From assembly GCA_947455725.1 (NCBI GenBank), contig CANGPL010000010.1, forward strand, positions 1-64,000: a DNA stretch of 64,000 nt, written 5' to 3'. The position numbers and the translations under genes are program-made. Positions 40,171-46,944 of the stretch are shown here, piece after piece; positions within the stretch are counted from its first letter, which is position 1, and every line of letters begins with the position of its first letter. This DNA comes from Hyphomicrobiales bacterium (GTDB lineage: Bacteria > Pseudomonadota > Alphaproteobacteria > Rhizobiales > Beijerinckiaceae). The notes under the pieces are model-generated. The model had not been told where the DNA came from, made no database searches, and saw only the letters and a program-made list of their open reading frames with translations.

Positions 40171-40198
40171 AAAAGGTGGCCGATTGGCCACCTTTTTT
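40171..40198. terminator. Bidirectional intrinsic terminator
   Basis: An 11-bp stem AAAAGGTGGCC / GGCCACCTTTT closes a GATT loop and ends in a run of six T (40193-40198). The A run on the left makes it work in both directions. It lies 21 bases after nlpD and at the very end of the convergent DUF815 gene. Confidence 0.92.
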
Positions 40199-41087
40199 AA
40201 TTCAGATGAATGCCGAGGCGTCCGGCTAAATCTTGAATATATTGATAGGCTGTGCGGCCCGAACGTGATCCGCGCGTTGTAGACCATTCCAGACTCTCAT
40301 GCTCAATCTGCGCGTTGTCGGTTTTAATGCCGTAATGTTGCGCATAGCCTCTGACCATTTCCAAATATTCGTCTTGGCTGCATTTATGAAATCCAAGCCA
40401 AAGGCCGAACCGGTCGGATAGCGATACTTTTTCCTCAATTGCCTCGCCGGGATTAATGGCGGTTCCGCGTTCATTGTCCATCATATCGCGCGGCAGGAGA
40501 TGGCGACGGTTCGAGGTTGCGTAAAATATAACGTTTTCCGGGCGGCCTTCGATGCCACCTTCAAGAACGGCTTTGAGCGATTTATAGGATGTATCATTCG
40601 CGTCGAAGGAGAGATCGTCACAAAATACGATAAAGCGACAATCGGCATCGCGCATAATCGCCATTAAAGCGGGCAGGCTTTCGATATCCTCGCGATGAAT
40701 TTCGATGAGTTTTAGTGGTTTGACGCCCGGTGTATTGCGCAGCTTTGCGAGCGCTGATGCGTGAGCGGCTTTGACGAGGGAGGATTTACCCATCCCGCGC
40801 GCGCCCCATAAAAGCGCGTTATTGGCGGGAAGCCCACGGGCAAACCGCTCGGTATTTTCGTTGAGTTGATCGCGGACTCGATCAATGCCGCGCAAGAGTT
40901 CCATTTCGACCCGGTTGACACGCGGGACCGGTGAAAGCCAACCACCATCCGCATGCCATACAAACGCGTCAGCCATCGCAAGATTGGTGAAGGGGCGCGG
41001 TTCAGGCGCCATTCGCTCAAGCGCATCGGCGATTCGCTTCAAATTGGTGGAAATTTCATCTGGCAGGGTAAAGGGCTGGGACGACAT
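40197..41087 (-). CDS. DUF815 family AAA-type ATPase
   Basis: The domain starts near FTLPDEISTNLKRIADALERM and has Walker A (LWGARGMGKSSLVKA), a Walker B-like FIVFCDDLSF and a sensor-like VIFYATSNRRHL segment. This is the DUF815 ATPase, whose function is unknown. The start is uncertain: ATG 41087 (296 residues), 41150 or 41171 are all open, and none has a clear ribosome site. I prefer 41087 because the conserved region begins right after it. Longer readings run into the yajC promoter. It ends in a shared terminator. Confidence 0.82.
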   Translation of the reverse strand: MSSQPFTLPDEISTNLKRIADALERMAPEPRPFTNLAMADAFVWHADGGWLSPVPRVNRVEMELLRGIDRVRDQLNENTERFARGLPANNALLWGARGMGKSSLVKAAHASALAKLRNTPGVKPLKLIEIHREDIESLPALMAIMRDADCRFIVFCDDLSFDANDTSYKSLKAVLEGGIEGRPENVIFYATSNRRHLLPRDMMDNERGTAINPGEAIEEKVSLSDRFGLWLGFHKCSQDEYLEMVRGYAQHYGIKTDNAQIEHESLEWSTTRGSRSGRTAYQYIQDLAGRLGIHLN

Positions 41088-41184
41088 GAGGGCGCTTACT
41101 CGATGAATGACGACATCTTTTCCATAACGGCGAAACTGGGCAACGTCCATAAGCGTTAAATTGACACTCATCGTGTGCTTTGAT

Positions 41185-41212
41185 TTGCAATCCGCCGCTG
41201 TCTGGCTATAGT
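41185..41212 (+). promoter_or_regulatory. Promoter of the yajC-secDF operon
   Basis: TTGCAA (41185-41190, 4 of 6 matches) and TATAGT (41207-41212, 5 of 6) are separated by 16 bases. The start site would be near 41219, giving a leader of about 67 bases before the yajC GTG. Confidence 0.45.
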
Positions 41213-41285
41213 CCCGACCGAAAGTTGGGGGCCATGGGGTTTCATGGTGCGGCCCGCTATTGAGATTTGATCGGAGGTTTCTGAC

Positions 41286-41612
41286 GTGATTACGCCCGCC
41301 TATGCGCAAAGTGCATCCGCCCTCGGGGGCTCGGATATGCTCATTCAGATCATCCCGTTCGTTCTTATTTTTATCATCATGTATTTCTTGATGATCCGTC
41401 CGCAGCAAAAGCGGCAAAAGGAACATCAGGAAATGATCAAAAATGTTCGCCGTGGCGATCAGATCGTGATGAGCGGCGGGCTTATCGGTAAGGTCGTTAA
41501 GGTGACGGACGATAACGAACTCGAACTTGAAATTGCCGACAATGTCCGGGTGCGGGTTTCGCGCTCTGCCATCGCCGACGTCCGCAGCAAGGGCGAACCG
41601 GTCAAATCCTGA
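41286..41612 (+). CDS. yajC: Preprotein translocase subunit YajC
   Basis: The 108-residue protein has a start at GTG 41286 with GGAGG upstream. One membrane span (LIQIIPFVLIFIIMYFLMI) is followed by the family signature RPQQKRQKEHQEM and the GDQIVMSGGLIGKV domain. YajC associates with SecDF and YidC. It leads the operon yajC-secD-secF. Confidence 0.96.
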   Translation: MITPAYAQSASALGGSDMLIQIIPFVLIFIIMYFLMIRPQQKRQKEHQEMIKNVRRGDQIVMSGGLIGKVVKVTDDNELELEIADNVRVRVSRSAIADVRSKGEPVKS

Positions 41613-41639: not shown

Positions 41640-43256
41640 ATGCTACGTTATTCTCGCGGCAAGATAGCTGCCATTCTGCTTTTAGCCTTCGCAGGCTTTT
41701 ATTTTGCCGCGCCGAGCTTGATGTCGCCTGAGTTGCGCGCATCAATCCGCGCCAATGCGCCGAGCTTTGTCCCGGCTTGGCTGATCCCGAGTCAGGCGAT
41801 TGTGCTTGGTCTTGACCTTCAGGGCGGCTCGCATGTGTTACTCGAAGTCGACAGTGCTGCGGTTGTAAAGACGCAGATTAATACGCTGCGTGACGATATG
41901 CGCCGCGTGCTGCGGGATGAAAAGGTGGCCCTTGCTGGCGGCATTGCCGTTTTACCGCGCGGGGTTACGGTTCGCATTGCAGATGCCAATGAGCGTGCTC
42001 GTGTTTTGCCGAAGCTTAAAGAGCTCGCGAGCACTGGATCTGCCGTTAATTTGATCCGTGGTGCTGCGCCTTCTTTGATTGAGTTTTCGGAACAGCCGGA
42101 TGGTTTGATCACGCTGACGGTAACCGACGAAGGCATTTCCGAAAAAGTGCGTAAGGCAATCGATCAGGCCATCGAAGTTTTACGCCGCCGTATCGACGCG
42201 TTGGGCACGACTGAACCTAATATCCAGAGGCAAGGTGTGGACCGTATCTTGGTTCAGGTTCCGGGCTTGCAGGATCCAAAGCGCCTGAAGGATATTTTGG
42301 GTACGACCGCGCAGCTTGAGTTCCGTATGGTTGCGGATTCTGGCGCGGCTTCGGGCGATGTAGAAATGCTTCCTCAGGTTGAGGACGGCGGAGGGCAGTT
42401 GCCGATTGAAAAACGGGTCATTGTGCAGGGCGAGGATCTGATCGACGCGCAACCTGGTTTCGATAGCCGCAACTCCGAGCCTATCGTCAATTTCAAATTC
42501 AACATCCGCGGCGCGCAGCGTTTCGGGCAGGCGACGACTGAATCGGTTGGCCGTTCTCTCGCCATTGTGCTTGATCGCAAGGTCATTTCGGCGCCGCGCA
42601 TTCAATCGCCAATTACGGGCGGACAGGGGCAGATTTCAGGTCGCTTCACGGTTGAGGCCGCTAATAATCTTGCCATTCTACTGCGTGCGGGTGCATTGCC
42701 GGCGCCGCTAACCATTGTCGAAGAACGCACCGTTGGTCCGGGTCTTGGACAGGATTCGATCAATGCCGGAAAAATTGCGTCTTATGTTGCCGCCATTTTA
42801 GTCGTTGGGTTCATGTTCGCGACCTATGGCCTGTTTGGCTTCTTTGCCAATATCGCGCTTGCCATTCACGTGGTGCTGATTTTTGCGATGATGTCTCTGA
42901 TTGGTACGACGCTGACGTTGCCGGGTATTGCGGGCATTGTATTGACCATTGGAACGGCGGTTGACTCCAACGTGCTGATTTATGAGCGCATTCGGGAAGA
43001 GGCGCGGCAGGGACGCAGTCTTGTAGCATCCCTAGATGCTGGCTTTACGCGTGCGTTTGCAACGATCATCGACTCGAATGTTACGATGTTTATCGCGGCC
43101 GCAATCTTGTTTTTCTTAGGCTCGGGTCCGGTACGTGGCTTTGCCGTCACGATGGTGTTTGGTATCGTTACGACGGTTGTCACCGCTGTAACCATGACGC
43201 GGATGATGATCGCGCTGTGGTATACGCGGTCTCGCCCGCAAAAAATGCCGTTCTGA
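41640..43256 (+). CDS. secD: Protein translocase subunit SecD
   Basis: The 538-residue RND-family protein has one N-terminal span, a large periplasmic region starting at GLDLQGGSHVLLEVD, and five C-terminal spans from about residue 375 with GTAVDSNVLIYERIREE. With SecF it uses proton flow to pull proteins out of SecYEG. It lies 27 bases after yajC. Confidence 0.97.
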   Translation: MLRYSRGKIAAILLLAFAGFYFAAPSLMSPELRASIRANAPSFVPAWLIPSQAIVLGLDLQGGSHVLLEVDSAAVVKTQINTLRDDMRRVLRDEKVALAGGIAVLPRGVTVRIADANERARVLPKLKELASTGSAVNLIRGAAPSLIEFSEQPDGLITLTVTDEGISEKVRKAIDQAIEVLRRRIDALGTTEPNIQRQGVDRILVQVPGLQDPKRLKDILGTTAQLEFRMVADSGAASGDVEMLPQVEDGGGQLPIEKRVIVQGEDLIDAQPGFDSRNSEPIVNFKFNIRGAQRFGQATTESVGRSLAIVLDRKVISAPRIQSPITGGQGQISGRFTVEAANNLAILLRAGALPAPLTIVEERTVGPGLGQDSINAGKIASYVAAILVVGFMFATYGLFGFFANIALAIHVVLIFAMMSLIGTTLTLPGIAGIVLTIGTAVDSNVLIYERIREEARQGRSLVASLDAGFTRAFATIIDSNVTMFIAAAILFFLGSGPVRGFAVTMVFGIVTTVVTAVTMTRMMIALWYTRSRPQKMPF

Positions 43257-43270
43257 GGAGATAGATCGCG

Positions 43271-44221
43271 ATGAAACTTCTCAGGATTATCCCGGACGAT
43301 ACGAAATTCGGCTTCATGAATTTCCGGAACATCAGCTTTCCGGTTTCGGCTTTGTTATCCGTTATTTCGGTCGTTGCGTTTTTGATGATTGGCCTCAATT
43401 TTGGCATTGATTTTACCGGCGGTACACTCATCGAGATGAAAGCCATCTCAAACCATGCCGATATTGCTAAGGTTCGCTCCTCGACGGCCGCGCTCAATTT
43501 GGGCGATGTTGAAGTTCAAGAATTCGGCAATCAGGGCGAAGTGTCATTGCGCTTTGGTTTGCAGCCGGGTGGCGATAAGGGCCAACAGGCGGTTGTCGAA
43601 CATGTTCGCTCAGTGTTTAGCGCGGATTATGAATTCCGCCGGGTCGAAGTTGTCGGCCCTCGCGTTTCGGGCGAGTTGGTTCAATCGGGTATTTTAGGCG
43701 TTGTGTTGTCTATCTTGGCCGTGCTCGTTTATTTGTGGTTTCGGTTCGAATGGCAATTTGCGGTCGGCGCCGTCATCGCAACCTTGCATGACCTTGTTCT
43801 GACACTCGGCTTTTTCTCTGTCACGCAGATCGAGTTCAATATGACGTCGATCGCGGCTATTTTGACGATTGTTGGCTACTCGCTGAACGATACCGTTGTC
43901 GTGTTTGACCGTATTCGTGAATTGCTTCGCAAATATAAGCGTATGCCGATTTCGGAATTGTTGGATCTATCGATCAATACGACTTTGTCGCGAACCGTCA
44001 TGACTTCGGTAACGACATCGCTTGCGCTTTTAGCGCTGGTTCTGTTTGGCGGTTCGGTGATCAAGAGCTTCTCCTATGCGATGATTTTTGGTGTTGTGAT
44101 CGGCACCTATTCATCGATTTTCATCGCGGCCCCTGTGTTGATCTATCTCGGCGCACGCATTGCAGCTGAGGCGAGCGAGACAGAACTGCCGGTCGACGAA
44201 GCGGCGCAGAAGGCAAAATGA
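43271..44221 (+). CDS. secF: Protein translocase subunit SecF
   Basis: The 316-residue partner of SecD has the conserved GIDFTGGTLIE after the first span and SLNDTVVVFDRIRE in the fourth, part of the proton path. The gene starts 14 bases after secD and its stop overlaps the next gene by ATGA. Confidence 0.97.
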   Translation: MKLLRIIPDDTKFGFMNFRNISFPVSALLSVISVVAFLMIGLNFGIDFTGGTLIEMKAISNHADIAKVRSSTAALNLGDVEVQEFGNQGEVSLRFGLQPGGDKGQQAVVEHVRSVFSADYEFRRVEVVGPRVSGELVQSGILGVVLSILAVLVYLWFRFEWQFAVGAVIATLHDLVLTLGFFSVTQIEFNMTSIAAILTIVGYSLNDTVVVFDRIRELLRKYKRMPISELLDLSINTTLSRTVMTSVTTSLALLALVLFGGSVIKSFSYAMIFGVVIGTYSSIFIAAPVLIYLGARIAAEASETELPVDEAAQKAK

Positions 44222-44601
44222 GTGATGCCCGTTATGAGGGCTTCGTACCGGGCCGGCATTTATTAGATGCCGTGGGTAATGGTGGGTTTCGCTTTGCGGA
44301 TATGTCGCATCGCGGTTCCATCATGATCGTGCCATCGGGCATTCATGCTTGGACGGTTCGCTCGATAGATCAATTAACGACTGTTTCATTTGATCCGGTT
44401 TTTACTGAAGCAAAAGACATCGATCTCTTGCTGTTCGGAACGGGGATTAACCCAGCCTATATCGATGAAAAAATCCGTTGGCGGTTTAAAGAGTTTAAAA
44501 TTGGTCTCGATGCGATGACCACAACGGCGGCGGCACGGACCTATAATGTCTTGATGAATGAAGGCAGGCGCGTGGCCGCCGCACTGATTGCAATCGATTA
44601 A
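44218..44601 (+). CDS. Mth938-like (DUF498) protein, related to mitochondrial NDUFAF3
   Basis: The 127-residue protein belongs to the Mth938 domain family: a YNVLMNEGRRVAAALI C-terminal helix and the LLFGTGINPAYIDEKIRW stretch are diagnostic. The human member is NDUFAF3, a complex I assembly factor. Bacterial function is not established. It is translationally coupled to secF by a four-base overlap and followed three bases later by a gene related to NDUFAF6. Confidence 0.85.
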   Translation: MSDARYEGFVPGRHLLDAVGNGGFRFADMSHRGSIMIVPSGIHAWTVRSIDQLTTVSFDPVFTEAKDIDLLLFGTGINPAYIDEKIRWRFKEFKIGLDAMTTTAAARTYNVLMNEGRRVAAALIAID

Positions 44602-44604
44602 ATT

Positions 44605-45456
44605 ATGGATAAAGCATCAGGAGCGGATTTTTGCCTCGAGAGCCTTAAACAGGCCGACCCTGAACGTTTTTTTACCTGTTTGTTTGCGCCCTCGGAATTT
44701 CGATCTGCGCTAGCCGCGCTGTATGCGTTCAATCTCGACATCGTGCGCACCCGTGAGATTGTTTCCGAACCCATGATTGGCGAGATTCGCCTACAATGGT
44801 GGCGCGATGCCTTGAGTGGAAAAGGCGAGGGGGATGTCGCATCCCATCCCATTGCAGGACCTCTCCTCGACGCCATCTCAAAATATCATCTGCCTTCCCA
44901 TGCGCTGATCAACCTGATCGATGCGCGCGTGTTTGATCTTTATGATGATCCGATGCCGAGTTTGAACGATCTTGAAGCCTATTGCGGGGAAACATCTTCC
45001 GCTTTGTTTCAGCTCTCGCTCTTTATTTTATCAAATGGAAAAGCCGTTTCAGCCGCAGATCTTTGCGGGCATGCCGGTGTTGCGTTCGGAATGATGTCTA
45101 TCTTGAAAGCCTTGCCTTGGCATTCAGCGCGTGGTCAGGTTTATGTTCCGCGCGACATTCTCGAGCGTCATCATATTACCGCTGATGATATAAGGCGGCG
45201 CGAGTTAACGCCTGCAATAAGCGCCGCTCTTAGCGAGATGCGGACGTTGGTTCGCCAACATTTGGATCAGGTGAGGCACCATGTGAAAGCCTTATCGCCC
45301 GAACTCGTTCCAGCATTCCTATCATTGACCAGTATTGAGCCTGTTTTGCGAGCGATGGACAAGCCAAACTATGATCCGTTTAAGTCGGTCATCGAACCTT
45401 CAAGACTGGCGCTGATCTACCGCTATTGGCGCGCCTCTCGCACCAAACTCATTTAG
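44605..45456 (+). CDS. Squalene/phytoene-synthase-fold protein, NDUFAF6-like
   Basis: The 283-residue protein has the all-helical squalene/phytoene synthase fold (ALYAFNLDIVRTREIVSEP, LEAYCGETSSALFQL). The two Asp-rich metal motifs of active prenyl synthases are lost: the first reads LDIVRTRE and the second, normally DxxxD, reads ILKALPWHSARG. This pattern resembles NDUFAF6, the mitochondrial complex I factor, including YAFN, the GEIRLQWWRD stretch and PAFLSLTS. An active carotenoid or hopanoid enzyme is unlikely. It lies three bases after the NDUFAF3-like gene and converges with trmFO, leaving two bases. Confidence 0.82.
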   Translation: MDKASGADFCLESLKQADPERFFTCLFAPSEFRSALAALYAFNLDIVRTREIVSEPMIGEIRLQWWRDALSGKGEGDVASHPIAGPLLDAISKYHLPSHALINLIDARVFDLYDDPMPSLNDLEAYCGETSSALFQLSLFILSNGKAVSAADLCGHAGVAFGMMSILKALPWHSARGQVYVPRDILERHHITADDIRRRELTPAISAALSEMRTLVRQHLDQVRHHVKALSPELVPAFLSLTSIEPVLRAMDKPNYDPFKSVIEPSRLALIYRYWRASRTKLI

Positions 45457-45458
45457 AC

Positions 45459-46856
45459 TTAATGTGCGGATGATTTAATCCAATTATCCATATCCAACGC
45501 GGCACGTGCAATTAGCGCCCGTTTTCTGGCGACTGATTTTTCGGTTCCTTTAAGCCGTTTGCCATTCGCGTCATTTTTATCGAAGGCTACAGGTGGGAAG
45601 AGGCCGAAATTGACATTCATCGGCTGGAATGAGGGCGGACCAGCATCAATTGTTTCAATATGCCCGCCGGTTATGTGATTGATCAATGCGCCGAGCGCTG
45701 TTGTTGGCGGGAAGGGCGATAACTCATGCCCATGGGCTTCGGCAGCCGTAAAACGCCCAGCCGCTAAGCCGATTGCCGCGCTTTCGACATAGCCCTCGCA
45801 TCCGGTAATTTGGCCGGCGAAACGAAGTCGAGGCAGTTCATTGAGCTGAAGGGTTGGGTCGAGCAACCGTGGTGAGTTTAAATAGGTATTGCGATGCAGC
45901 CCGCCGAGCCGCGCGAATTCGGCTTGTTGCAGGCCGGGTATCATCCGCAAGACCTTGGCCTGTTCGCCATATTTCAATTTGGTTTGGAAACCGACAATAT
46001 TATAGAGCGTTCCCAACGCGTTATCCTGCCTAAGTTGAACAATCGCATAAGGTTTGACGGTCGGATTTCTTGGGTTTGTAAGGCCCACGGGCTTCATAGG
46101 GCCATGGCGCAAGGTCTCGCGGCCGCGTGCGGCCATGATTTCGATTGGTAGGCAGCCATCAAAATAGGGCGTGCCTTCCCATTCCTTGAAATCCGTCTTT
46201 TCGCCAACAAGCAAAGCGTCGACAAAAGCGTCATATTCGGCACGATCCATCGGACAATTGATGTAATCCGCGCCATTACCGCCGGGACCAACTTTATCGT
46301 AGCGGCTTTGAAACCAAGCAATATCCATATCGATGGTTTCGGCGTGAACGATTGGCGCAATGGCGTCAAAAAAAGCGAGTTGGCTCTCGCCTGTAACACC
46401 CCGAACCGCTTCAGCCAGGGCAGGCGAGGTTAGCGGGCCAGTGGCGATAATCACACGTCCCCATTCTTCTGGGGGAAGACCGGCAACTTCCTCGCGCTCA
46501 ATTGAAATAAGAGGATGGGTTTCAAGCACCTTGGTAACGGTGTTCGAAAAGCCGTCGCGATCAACGGCTAACGCGCCACCCGCCGGCACCTGATTGGCAT
46601 CGGCCGCTTGCATGATGAGCGAACCGAGTTTGCGCATTTCGGCATGAAGCAGACCTACAGCATTAGTGGATGCTTCATCCGATCGAAAGGAGTTGGAGCA
46701 GACGAGTTCCGCCAAACCTTCGGTCTTGTGCGCATCCGTTTTGCGGGTTGGGCGCATTTCATGAAGGATAACCGGAACGCCGCTCTGAGCAAGTTGCCAA
46801 GCTGCTTCTGATCCGGCCAAACCGCCGCCGATAATATGAATAGGTTTCGTGTTCAT
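45459..46856 (-). CDS. trmFO: tRNA (uracil-54-C5) methyltransferase TrmFO, folate dependent
   Basis: Start ATG 46856 ([20 protein letters not shown]) or the adjacent ATG 46859 is favoured because the FAD-binding GGGLAGSE must sit near the N terminus; the reading from 46913 adds unconserved sequence. This gives 465 residues. [20 protein letters not shown] and the C-terminal INPxNxN-like [16 protein letters not shown] are family features. It methylates U54 of tRNA with methylene-tetrahydrofolate and FADH2. A terminator of the upstream DUF1127 gene lies 55 bases from the start. Confidence 0.94.
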
Positions 46857-46911
46857 CATGCGCCGGACCATAGGCCGCGTCGTTATCTCGCTGCAAGATG
46901 ATTTGATAAAC

Positions 46912-46944
46912 AAAAAACGCCCGCCGGGAGGGGGCGGGCGTTTT
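46912..46944 (-). terminator. Intrinsic terminator of the DUF1127 gene
   Basis: A 12-bp stem (AAAACGCCCGCC with GGCGGGCGTTTT) has a 7-base loop. On the minus strand it is followed by TTTTTTG, which makes it a strong intrinsic terminator, 67 bases after the DUF1127 stop. It separates that gene from trmFO. Confidence 0.9.

Follow-up and report, generated by a model that had tools for sequence, protein, structure and literature searches.

Our analysis of a 64,000-nucleotide stretch of DNA from a Hyphomicrobiales bacterium (Beijerinckiaceae; contig CANGPL010000010.1 of assembly GCA_947455725.1), hereafter the window, concerns two genes that follow yajC, secD and secF: AF3, a member of the Mth938/NDUFAF3 family, and AF6, which encodes a degenerate, NDUFAF6-like protein of the squalene/phytoene synthase fold. 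We consider it likely that AF6 is a retired HpnD-type synthase which now serves, without enzymatic activity, as an assembly factor of nuo14-type respiratory complex I, and that AF3 is a chaperone acting at the same step. Both aspartate-rich motifs of the synthases are gone from AF6, neither gene occurs in the 21 genomes without a NuoD match in a sample of the class Alphaproteobacteria, and in one family AF6 was lost together with nuo14-type complex I and a gene of the NDUFAF7 family. The genes themselves are largely known; what seems to be new is the nuo14-linked co-loss and a neighbourhood of hpnC, hpnD and hpnE.

AF6 retains a synthase fold and lacks both aspartate motifs

AF6 matches PF00494 in Pfam with 179.6 bits (E 1e-52). 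Its best NCBIfam family is HpnD, although at 109.6 bits it remains below the cut-off of 278.6 of the HpnD equivalog TIGR03465; two hpnD genes which adjoin AF6 in relatives pass this model with 297 and 309 bits, while the AF6 proteins tested fail it. In alignments to HpnC, CrtM and HpnD, of which those with HpnC and CrtM span most of the length of AF6, motif 1 (DDxxD) is replaced by V47-R48-T49-R50-E51 and motif 2 (RDxxED) by K168-A169-L-P-W172-H173. Thus, neither hallmark of an active HpnD or squalene/phytoene synthase, the two Asp motifs and a passing TIGR03465 score, is found in AF6, whereas the two features of NDUFAF6, an SQS_PSY fold and the absence of DxxxD, are both present.

The absence of both motifs, which the first-pass annotation had read from the window, was confirmed by these alignments and extends to the whole group. 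We refer to aligned rows with R[LI][QEH][WF]W at the signature position of AF6 as RLQWW-type, and none of 155 such rows (35+30+10+80, a few loci being counted twice) carries motif 1 or motif 2; motif 1 is present in 68 of the 99 remaining rows, some of which are divergent AF6. In 26 AF6 proteins collected independently of this signature, positions R62 and W66 never vary, and conservation is at least 90% at L63, Q64, W65 and R67. The invariance of RLQWW in a set of 66 rows is biased because the named loci were retrieved by a pattern containing it, so that the 26 proteins represent the unbiased set. The signature was found in none of 20 HpnD-type rows from outside the Alphaproteobacteria. Moreover, the AF6 profile match ends at about position 162-184 in a number of genomes, which argues that the motif-2 half of the protein has drifted beyond recognition.

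An AlphaFold model of AF6 based on 66 sequences reached a mean predicted local distance difference test score (pLDDT) of 96. It matches the CrtM-like enzyme 8is6 with template modelling (TM) scores of 0.84/0.87 and HpnC with 0.73/0.78, as well as squalene synthase structures and the carbazole prenyl transferases LvqB4 and CqsB4. AF6 has therefore retained the synthase fold and lost the metal-binding residues. A profile search of the PDB with AF6 gave no NDUFAF6 chain among its matches. We also detected extra weak PF00494-like frames adjoining AF6 in three loci, L045 8400-9563 (-), L075 567-1505 (+) and L278 4692-5792 (+), which score 29-41 bits to the AF6 profile and contain HI[LM]RDL stretches.

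AF3 and AF6 co-occur with complex I in Alphaproteobacteria

We searched 241 alphaproteobacterial genomes of at least 90% completeness for AF3, for AF6 (profile A1, built from 26 sequences) and for the complex I subunit NuoD. Strong A1 matches were taken as AF6 by score, with motifs read only in fetched loci, and 55 genomes, mostly with weak A1 matches, were searched again and their loci read. Matches to A1 occurred in 177 genomes, of which 153 were assigned AF6, 22 have only paralogues keeping an Asp motif (in a variant form in G096), and two (G124 and G206, about 19 bits) were set aside and counted as negative; G207 (27.6 bits) was scored as positive in view of the AF6-like motifs in G010 and G125, two genomes of the same family. 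AF3 was found in 134 of the 241 genomes, absence meaning that a genome is not on the list of PF04430 positives; in G014 and G053 there are two PF04430 genes, the second copy scoring much lower. Both genes occur in 124 genomes, AF3 alone in 10, AF6 alone in 29 and neither in 78 (Fisher p 3e-27, not corrected for phylogeny).

A NuoD match was present in 220 of the 241 genomes (206 over cut-off). The first-pass annotation had suggested a survey against the nuo genes, and its outcome is in line with a link to complex I: AF3 or AF6 was found in none of the 21 NuoD-less genomes, compared with 134/220 (AF3) and 153/220 (AF6) among the genomes with a NuoD match. Here, a genome is regarded as lacking complex I if it has neither a NuoD match nor a NuoF over cut-off, as NuoF-family matches below cut-off occur in 9 of the 21, and one genome (G237) was assigned to the NuoD-less group by elimination. 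Matches to A1 in four of the 21 (G037, G144, G213 and G225) are all HpnD or HpnC with Asp motifs. Two AF6-bearing genomes with a weak NuoD match (G061 and G193) have NuoF over cut-off. All NuoD-less genomes are at most 2 Mb in size, and a fair comparison is therefore restricted to genomes of up to 2 Mb. Among these, AF3 or AF6 is found in 19 of 66 genomes with NuoD and in 0 of 21 without (one-sided Fisher p 0.0025, again not corrected for phylogeny); the corresponding numbers are 15/66 for AF6 (p 0.010) and 11/66 for AF3 (p 0.038).

AF6 is lost together with nuo14 in an Acetobacteraceae-like family

In Acetobacteraceae, two complex I types have been described under the names nuo13 and nuo14 (PMC10715153). 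One family of our survey, f22, appears to be Acetobacteraceae-like, as it contains two complex I types resembling these. We sampled 120 f22 genomes, in which AF6 was assigned by score where the locus was not fetched; 34 were re-searched with profile A2, and NuoF was searched in 63 chosen genomes. A nuo14-type NuoD is present in 96 of the 120 genomes (94 over cut-off, with partial genes in G255 and G257), and 92 of these 96 carry AF6. By comparison, AF6 is found in none of nine genomes without NuoD above a weak level and without NuoF, and in one of ten which have only a type with fused NuoCD and NuoF below cut-off. The 18 genomes of these two groups that lack AF6 all retain HpnD at the hopanoid locus; motif 2 could be read in every one of them and motif 1 in 16, the aligned stretch in G213 and G342 beginning after motif 1. 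The loss therefore does not extend to the fold family as such. Only two of the 120 genomes have AF3 over cut-off, compared with 96 that have AF6.

In a FastTree phylogeny of HpnC and HpnD covering 62 of the 120 genomes, the AF6-less genomes of both groups together with G267 and G340 form one clade, indicating a single loss event. In G267 and G340, NuoD lies in a frame of NuoCD length inside this AF6-less clade, possibly representing a third, re-acquired complex I type. In the nuo14-type genome G307, the AF6 matches at G307:C1:289812-290243 contain several stops, which points either to a decaying copy or to an assembly error.

The loss also involves PF02636, the family of NDUFAF7 (C2orf56), which served as an independent check. 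PF02636 agrees with AF6 in 40 of 40 f22 genomes tested (20 with both, among them G261, and 20 with neither). Among the genomes of the class sample tested, it is present in 17 of 17 with AF6 and in 1 of 20 without NuoD. It was found in 0 of 3 genomes of family f59, where the NuoD matches are divergent and AF3 and AF6 are both missing. In the genome of the window, the PF02636 gene sits on another contig (C40), and the agreement with AF6 is therefore not due to linkage. Human NDUFAF7 is reported to methylate NDUFS2 during complex I assembly (PMC3829151), and NDUFAF3, C8orf38 (NDUFAF6) and C2orf56 have been described as a co-evolving triple (PMC3436739).

The gene block behind yajC-secD-secF

The features of the locus are listed in Table 1. 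The reading frames and families agree with the first-pass annotation in that AF3 overlaps secF by four bases (ATGA) and AF6 follows three bases after the AF3 stop. The PF04430 match of AF3 is nearly full-length (100.4 bits, cut-off 33, E 7e-29). The source assembly comprises 2.98 Mb in 128 contigs, and the nearest named relatives of its AF6 are found in Hyphomicrobiales metagenome-assembled genomes, Microvirga and Beijerinckiaceae. Upstream, a DUF815 AAA ATPase gene (40197-41426, minus strand) appears as a long frame overlapping the start of yajC; its true start is probably internal.

Table 1. Features of the yajC-secD-secF-AF3-AF6 locus (window positions).
Feature	Position	Strand	Support
yajC	41286..41612	+	TIGR00739 99.5 bits (over cut-off); PF02699
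secD	41640..43256	+	TIGR01129 468.7 bits
secF	43271..44221	+	TIGR00966 317.5 bits
AF3, Mth938/NDUFAF3-family gene	44218..44601	+	PF04430 (DUF498); solved relatives 2fi9, 2fvt
AF6, degenerate squalene/phytoene-synthase-fold protein, NDUFAF6-like	44605..45456	+	PF00494; AlphaFold model
Site of Asp motif 1 (DDxxD) in AF6, reads VRTRE	44743..44757	+	alignments
RLQWWR signature of the AF6 group (R62-R67)	44788..44805	+	26 AF6 proteins
Site of Asp motif 2 (D..ED) in AF6, reads A-L-P-W-H	45109..45123	+	alignments
trmFO-like gene, convergent with AF6, usual downstream neighbour	45459..46913	-	PF01134

We compared 40 loci of the class sample that had been chosen for the presence of AF3, 80 named loci that had been chosen for the presence of AF6 and are in several cases cut short, and 30 loci of f22. 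The recurring order is yajC-secD-secF-AF3, often followed by opposite-strand genes, then AF6 and a convergent trmFO. In 34/40 class and 58/80 named loci, AF3 and secF share a strand and are no more than 600 bases apart, so that the arrangement in the window is not due to chance. The two genes are at most 10 kb apart in 93 of the 124 genomes with both and on different contigs in 23; their matches abut within 100 bp in only 14 of the 124. Spacing as close as in the window, with matches up to 300 bases apart, occurs in 41 of the 61 named loci that hold both genes, a set biased to relatives of the window, and in 4 of 31 class loci. Between them, sodB is found in 11/31 class and 5/61 named loci, and hpn-like genes, whole or in part, in 6/31 and 2/61. 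Full hpnE-hpnD-hpnC sets intervene in L032, L046 and L054, and the three genes also adjoin AF6 in L256 (Azospirillum) and L274, where AF3 is outside the stretch covered. An opposite-strand Urate_ox_N gene separates AF3 and AF6 in all three loci examined for it (L034 8749-9402, L041 8000-8557 and L246 3140-3883). In L065, a same-strand dCTP deaminase gene is located in the interval. Downstream, trmFO is convergent within 6 kb of AF6 in 22/31 class and 66/80 named loci with AF6. In f22, sodB is located beside AF6 in 29 of the 30 loci, 15 of the loci show yajC, and in none of the 30 do the 1.5 kb AF6 flanks contain secD or secF. This varied spacing, together with the f22 loci, indicates that the tight AF3-AF6 coupling of the window is one local form, and that AF6 manages without adjacent secDF.

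A probable HpnD-type ancestor of AF6

The ancestor of AF6 was probably an HpnD-type synthase, as judged from its phylogenetic position. In a tree of 63 sequences, AF6 forms a single clade (100/100) inside HpnD (96/92) on a long stem branch, nearest to non-alphaproteobacterial (beta/gamma-type) HpnD (96/95) and not to alphaproteobacterial HpnD, in a sampling biased by the choice of the non-alphaproteobacterial rows among high-scoring A1 matches. Alternative placements with alphaproteobacterial HpnD (approximately unbiased test, p-AU 0.29) or with HpnC (p-AU 0.18) were not rejected, and an HpnD-type origin is therefore favoured but not proven. Intact hpnD genes are present separately in relatives, some of them next to AF6. 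A local duplication of such an adjacent hpnD was considered as the source of AF6 and is not favoured, as the best tree joins AF6 to non-alphaproteobacterial HpnD, although the test does not reject the alphaproteobacterial placement. Outside the Alphaproteobacteria, 19 of 20 high-scoring matches from a phylum sample of 299 genomes carry motif 1; only these 20 were inspected, and they are not strictly the top 20, since G376, G392 and G526 were passed over. In the remaining one, an HpnD-type protein (L356, genome G562), motif 1 is replaced and motif 2 partly kept, perhaps reflecting an independent loss of synthase activity.

Weighing the explanations

Several observations weigh against a dedicated role of AF6 in nuo14-type complex I. 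AF6 is absent from 67 of the 220 class-sample genomes with a NuoD match and is therefore not required for complex I in general, and in G189, an assembly of 450 contigs, AF3 and AF6 are both present although NuoD is matched only weakly (9e-31) and NuoF is below cut-off. Within f22, AF6 was not found in G265 and G296, is broken in G307 and uncertain in G257, all of which have nuo14. Conversely, G261 has AF6 with the NuoCD-fused type only, and G242, G264 and G313 have AF6 while no nuo operon was found in their fragmented assemblies (550, 550 and 160 contigs). G267 and G340 have fused NuoCD and a high-scoring NuoF over cut-off and lack both AF6 and PF02636. A test of independent pairs on f22 gives one pair and no significance; with the exceptions counted as they stand, there are four pairs, of which about one goes the same way, one the opposite way and two show no difference. 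A single pair has no power, and at least six would be required, so that this approach was abandoned as a proof that AF6 is linked to nuo14. Furthermore, PF02636 occurs in one NuoD-less genome (G070) and matches the control genomes of Synechococcus and Haloferax, and PF04430 matches those of Thermus and Methanosarcina, so that the link to complex I does not hold for either family in all organisms; the control Escherichia coli has complex I, yet matches neither. Finally, the putative orthology to the human proteins is based on papers and motifs.

An alternative is that AF3 and AF6 have a general role in aerobic respiration or for membrane proteins, the complex I link having arisen secondarily through genome reduction and a single change of lifestyle in acetic acid bacteria. 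The small size of all 21 NuoD-less genomes and the single loss event in f22 fit such a view, as does the report that the acetous clade altered other respiratory enzymes too (PMC10715153). We nevertheless regard it as unlikely, since the difference persists among genomes of up to 2 Mb (19/66 versus 0/21), nine of the ten NuoCD-only genomes lack AF6, and the presence or absence of AF6 agrees in 40 of 40 genomes with that of PF02636, a family with a human member that methylates NDUFS2. It is still less probable that AF6 continues to perform isoprenoid or lipid chemistry, for instance a changed prenyl transfer or ligand delivery, instead of chaperoning. The CrtM/HpnC fold is kept, and LvqB4 and CqsB4, with the same fold and other chemistry, are among the structure matches; however, both Asp motifs are gone in 155 of 155 RLQWW-type rows, the motif-2 half has drifted past profile recognition in a number of genomes, and AF6 was lost with nuo14 while hpnD stayed.

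For the gene neighbourhood, there is about an even chance that AF3 and AF6 each serve complex I but are functionally connected neither with SecDF nor with each other's expression, the gene order being inherited from an old block which also held sodB, hpnCDE and trmFO. The genes that intervene between AF3 and AF6 (sodB in 11/31 class loci, hpn-like genes in 6/31, Urate_ox_N in three loci) and the equally constant neighbour trmFO (22/31 class and 66/80 named loci) agree with this, as does f22, where AF6 persists with AF3 nearly absent and where the 1.5 kb AF6 flanks at 30 loci contain neither secD nor secF. On the other hand, AF3 stays within 600 bases of secF in 34/40 class loci. In addition, human NDUFAF3 has been named as a putative partner of Oxa1, and in Trypanosoma Oxa1 and an NDUFAF3 homologue are reported to have both been caught with ZapE2 (PMC7314023).

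Seen in this light, the ancestral complex I module proposed by the first-pass annotation can be upheld as far as the link to complex I is concerned, for which the nuo co-occurrence, the missing synthase motifs in all 155 RLQWW-type rows, the co-loss with nuo14 and the NDUFAF7-family gene, and the co-evolution of the human proteins speak. It has to be given up as an obligate AF3-AF6 unit (29 class-sample genomes have AF6 only and 10 AF3 only, and f22 has AF3 in 2/120) and as a generally conserved operon, given the opposite-strand genes that often intervene. A functional tie to SecDF is not supported by our data, the flanks of AF6 in f22 being free of secD and secF. What the survey adds is that AF6 tracks nuo14 and the NDUFAF7-family gene in one family, and that there is no obligate partnership with AF3 or SecDF.

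Proposed role and significance

Human NDUFAF3, NDUFAF4 and NDUFAF6 are reported to be needed for normal synthesis of MT-ND1 and to act around the Q module, NDUFAF3 and NDUFAF6 being placed at the same ND1/Q-module step (PMC6056720). We infer orthology of AF3 and AF6 to the human proteins, and likewise their binding partners and step of action. By analogy with human NDUFAF6, the site of action of AF6 would be the contact of the Q module with the membrane subunit ND1/NuoH, and AF3 would be the bacterial NDUFAF3-family chaperone at the same step, so that both would hold the junction between NuoH and the Q module while nuo14-type complex I is being assembled. Their position behind yajC-secD-secF probably goes back to an ancient block of alphaproteobacterial genes; it is plausible that the Sec/YidC insertion machinery hands over directly to AF3 and AF6.

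A wider proposal, which we put forward tentatively and with less than even confidence, is that AF3, AF6 and the NDUFAF7-family gene formed an ancestral alphaproteobacterial assembly kit specific to nuo14-type complex I that was inherited by mitochondria. AF6 would have arisen from a hopanoid-pathway synthase of the HpnD type, possibly where hpnC, hpnD and hpnE still adjoin it, in Azospirillum and relatives. When nuo14 gave way to nuo13 or to no complex I at all in the core acetic acid bacteria, both AF6 and the NDUFAF7-family gene would have disappeared along that one branch. The former isoprenoid cavity of AF6 may still serve in the sensing or positioning of quinone or of the NuoH helices.

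NDUFAF6 is a human disease gene of unknown mechanism. If AF6 serves only nuo14, alphaproteobacteria with both complex I types, such as Rhodobacter sphaeroides with its two isozymes, would offer a clean genetic test of its function, and the subunit differences between the types would narrow down the binding site. Paracoccus denitrificans has the nuo14 type, whereas the Zymomonas lineage is not known to have nuo. Moreover, an HpnD origin, if true, would explain why a complex I factor has the fold of a lipid synthase.

Comparison with known systems

Saada et al. 2009 reportedly link NDUFAF3 by gene conservation to SecF/SecD/YajC and to C8ORF38. The pairing of AF3 with AF6, which the first-pass annotation regarded as the new part, thus seems not to be new. 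In the literature searched, we found no paper on a link of NDUFAF3 to SecDF or of NDUFAF6 to hopanoids, none on the hpn neighbourhood or a tie to a complex I type, nuo14 specificity not having been searched by name, and none with a functional test of the NDUFAF6-like protein in bacteria.

Sicily of Drosophila is a further counterpart of NDUFAF6. AF6 resembles human NDUFAF6/C8orf38 and Candida NDU1 in having an SQS_PSY fold without either DxxxD; NDUFAF6 and its orthologues are described as lacking DxxxD, and prokaryotic orthologues as clustering with NDUFAF6 (PMC8007014, the latter adapting Lemire 2017). It differs from them in being bacterial and in its location beside secDF and AF3, and the likeness is drawn from motifs and papers. 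AF3 shares the Pfam family PF04430 with NDUFAF3/C3orf60 and with the Mth938-like structures 2fi9 and 2fvt, while its gene, unlike that of NDUFAF3/C3orf60, overlaps secF. With HpnD (TIGR03465), HpnC and CrtB/CrtM, AF6 has in common the superfamily, the fold and a tree position inside HpnD, from which it is set apart by the missing Asp motifs, a score far under the equivalog cut-off and a long stem branch.

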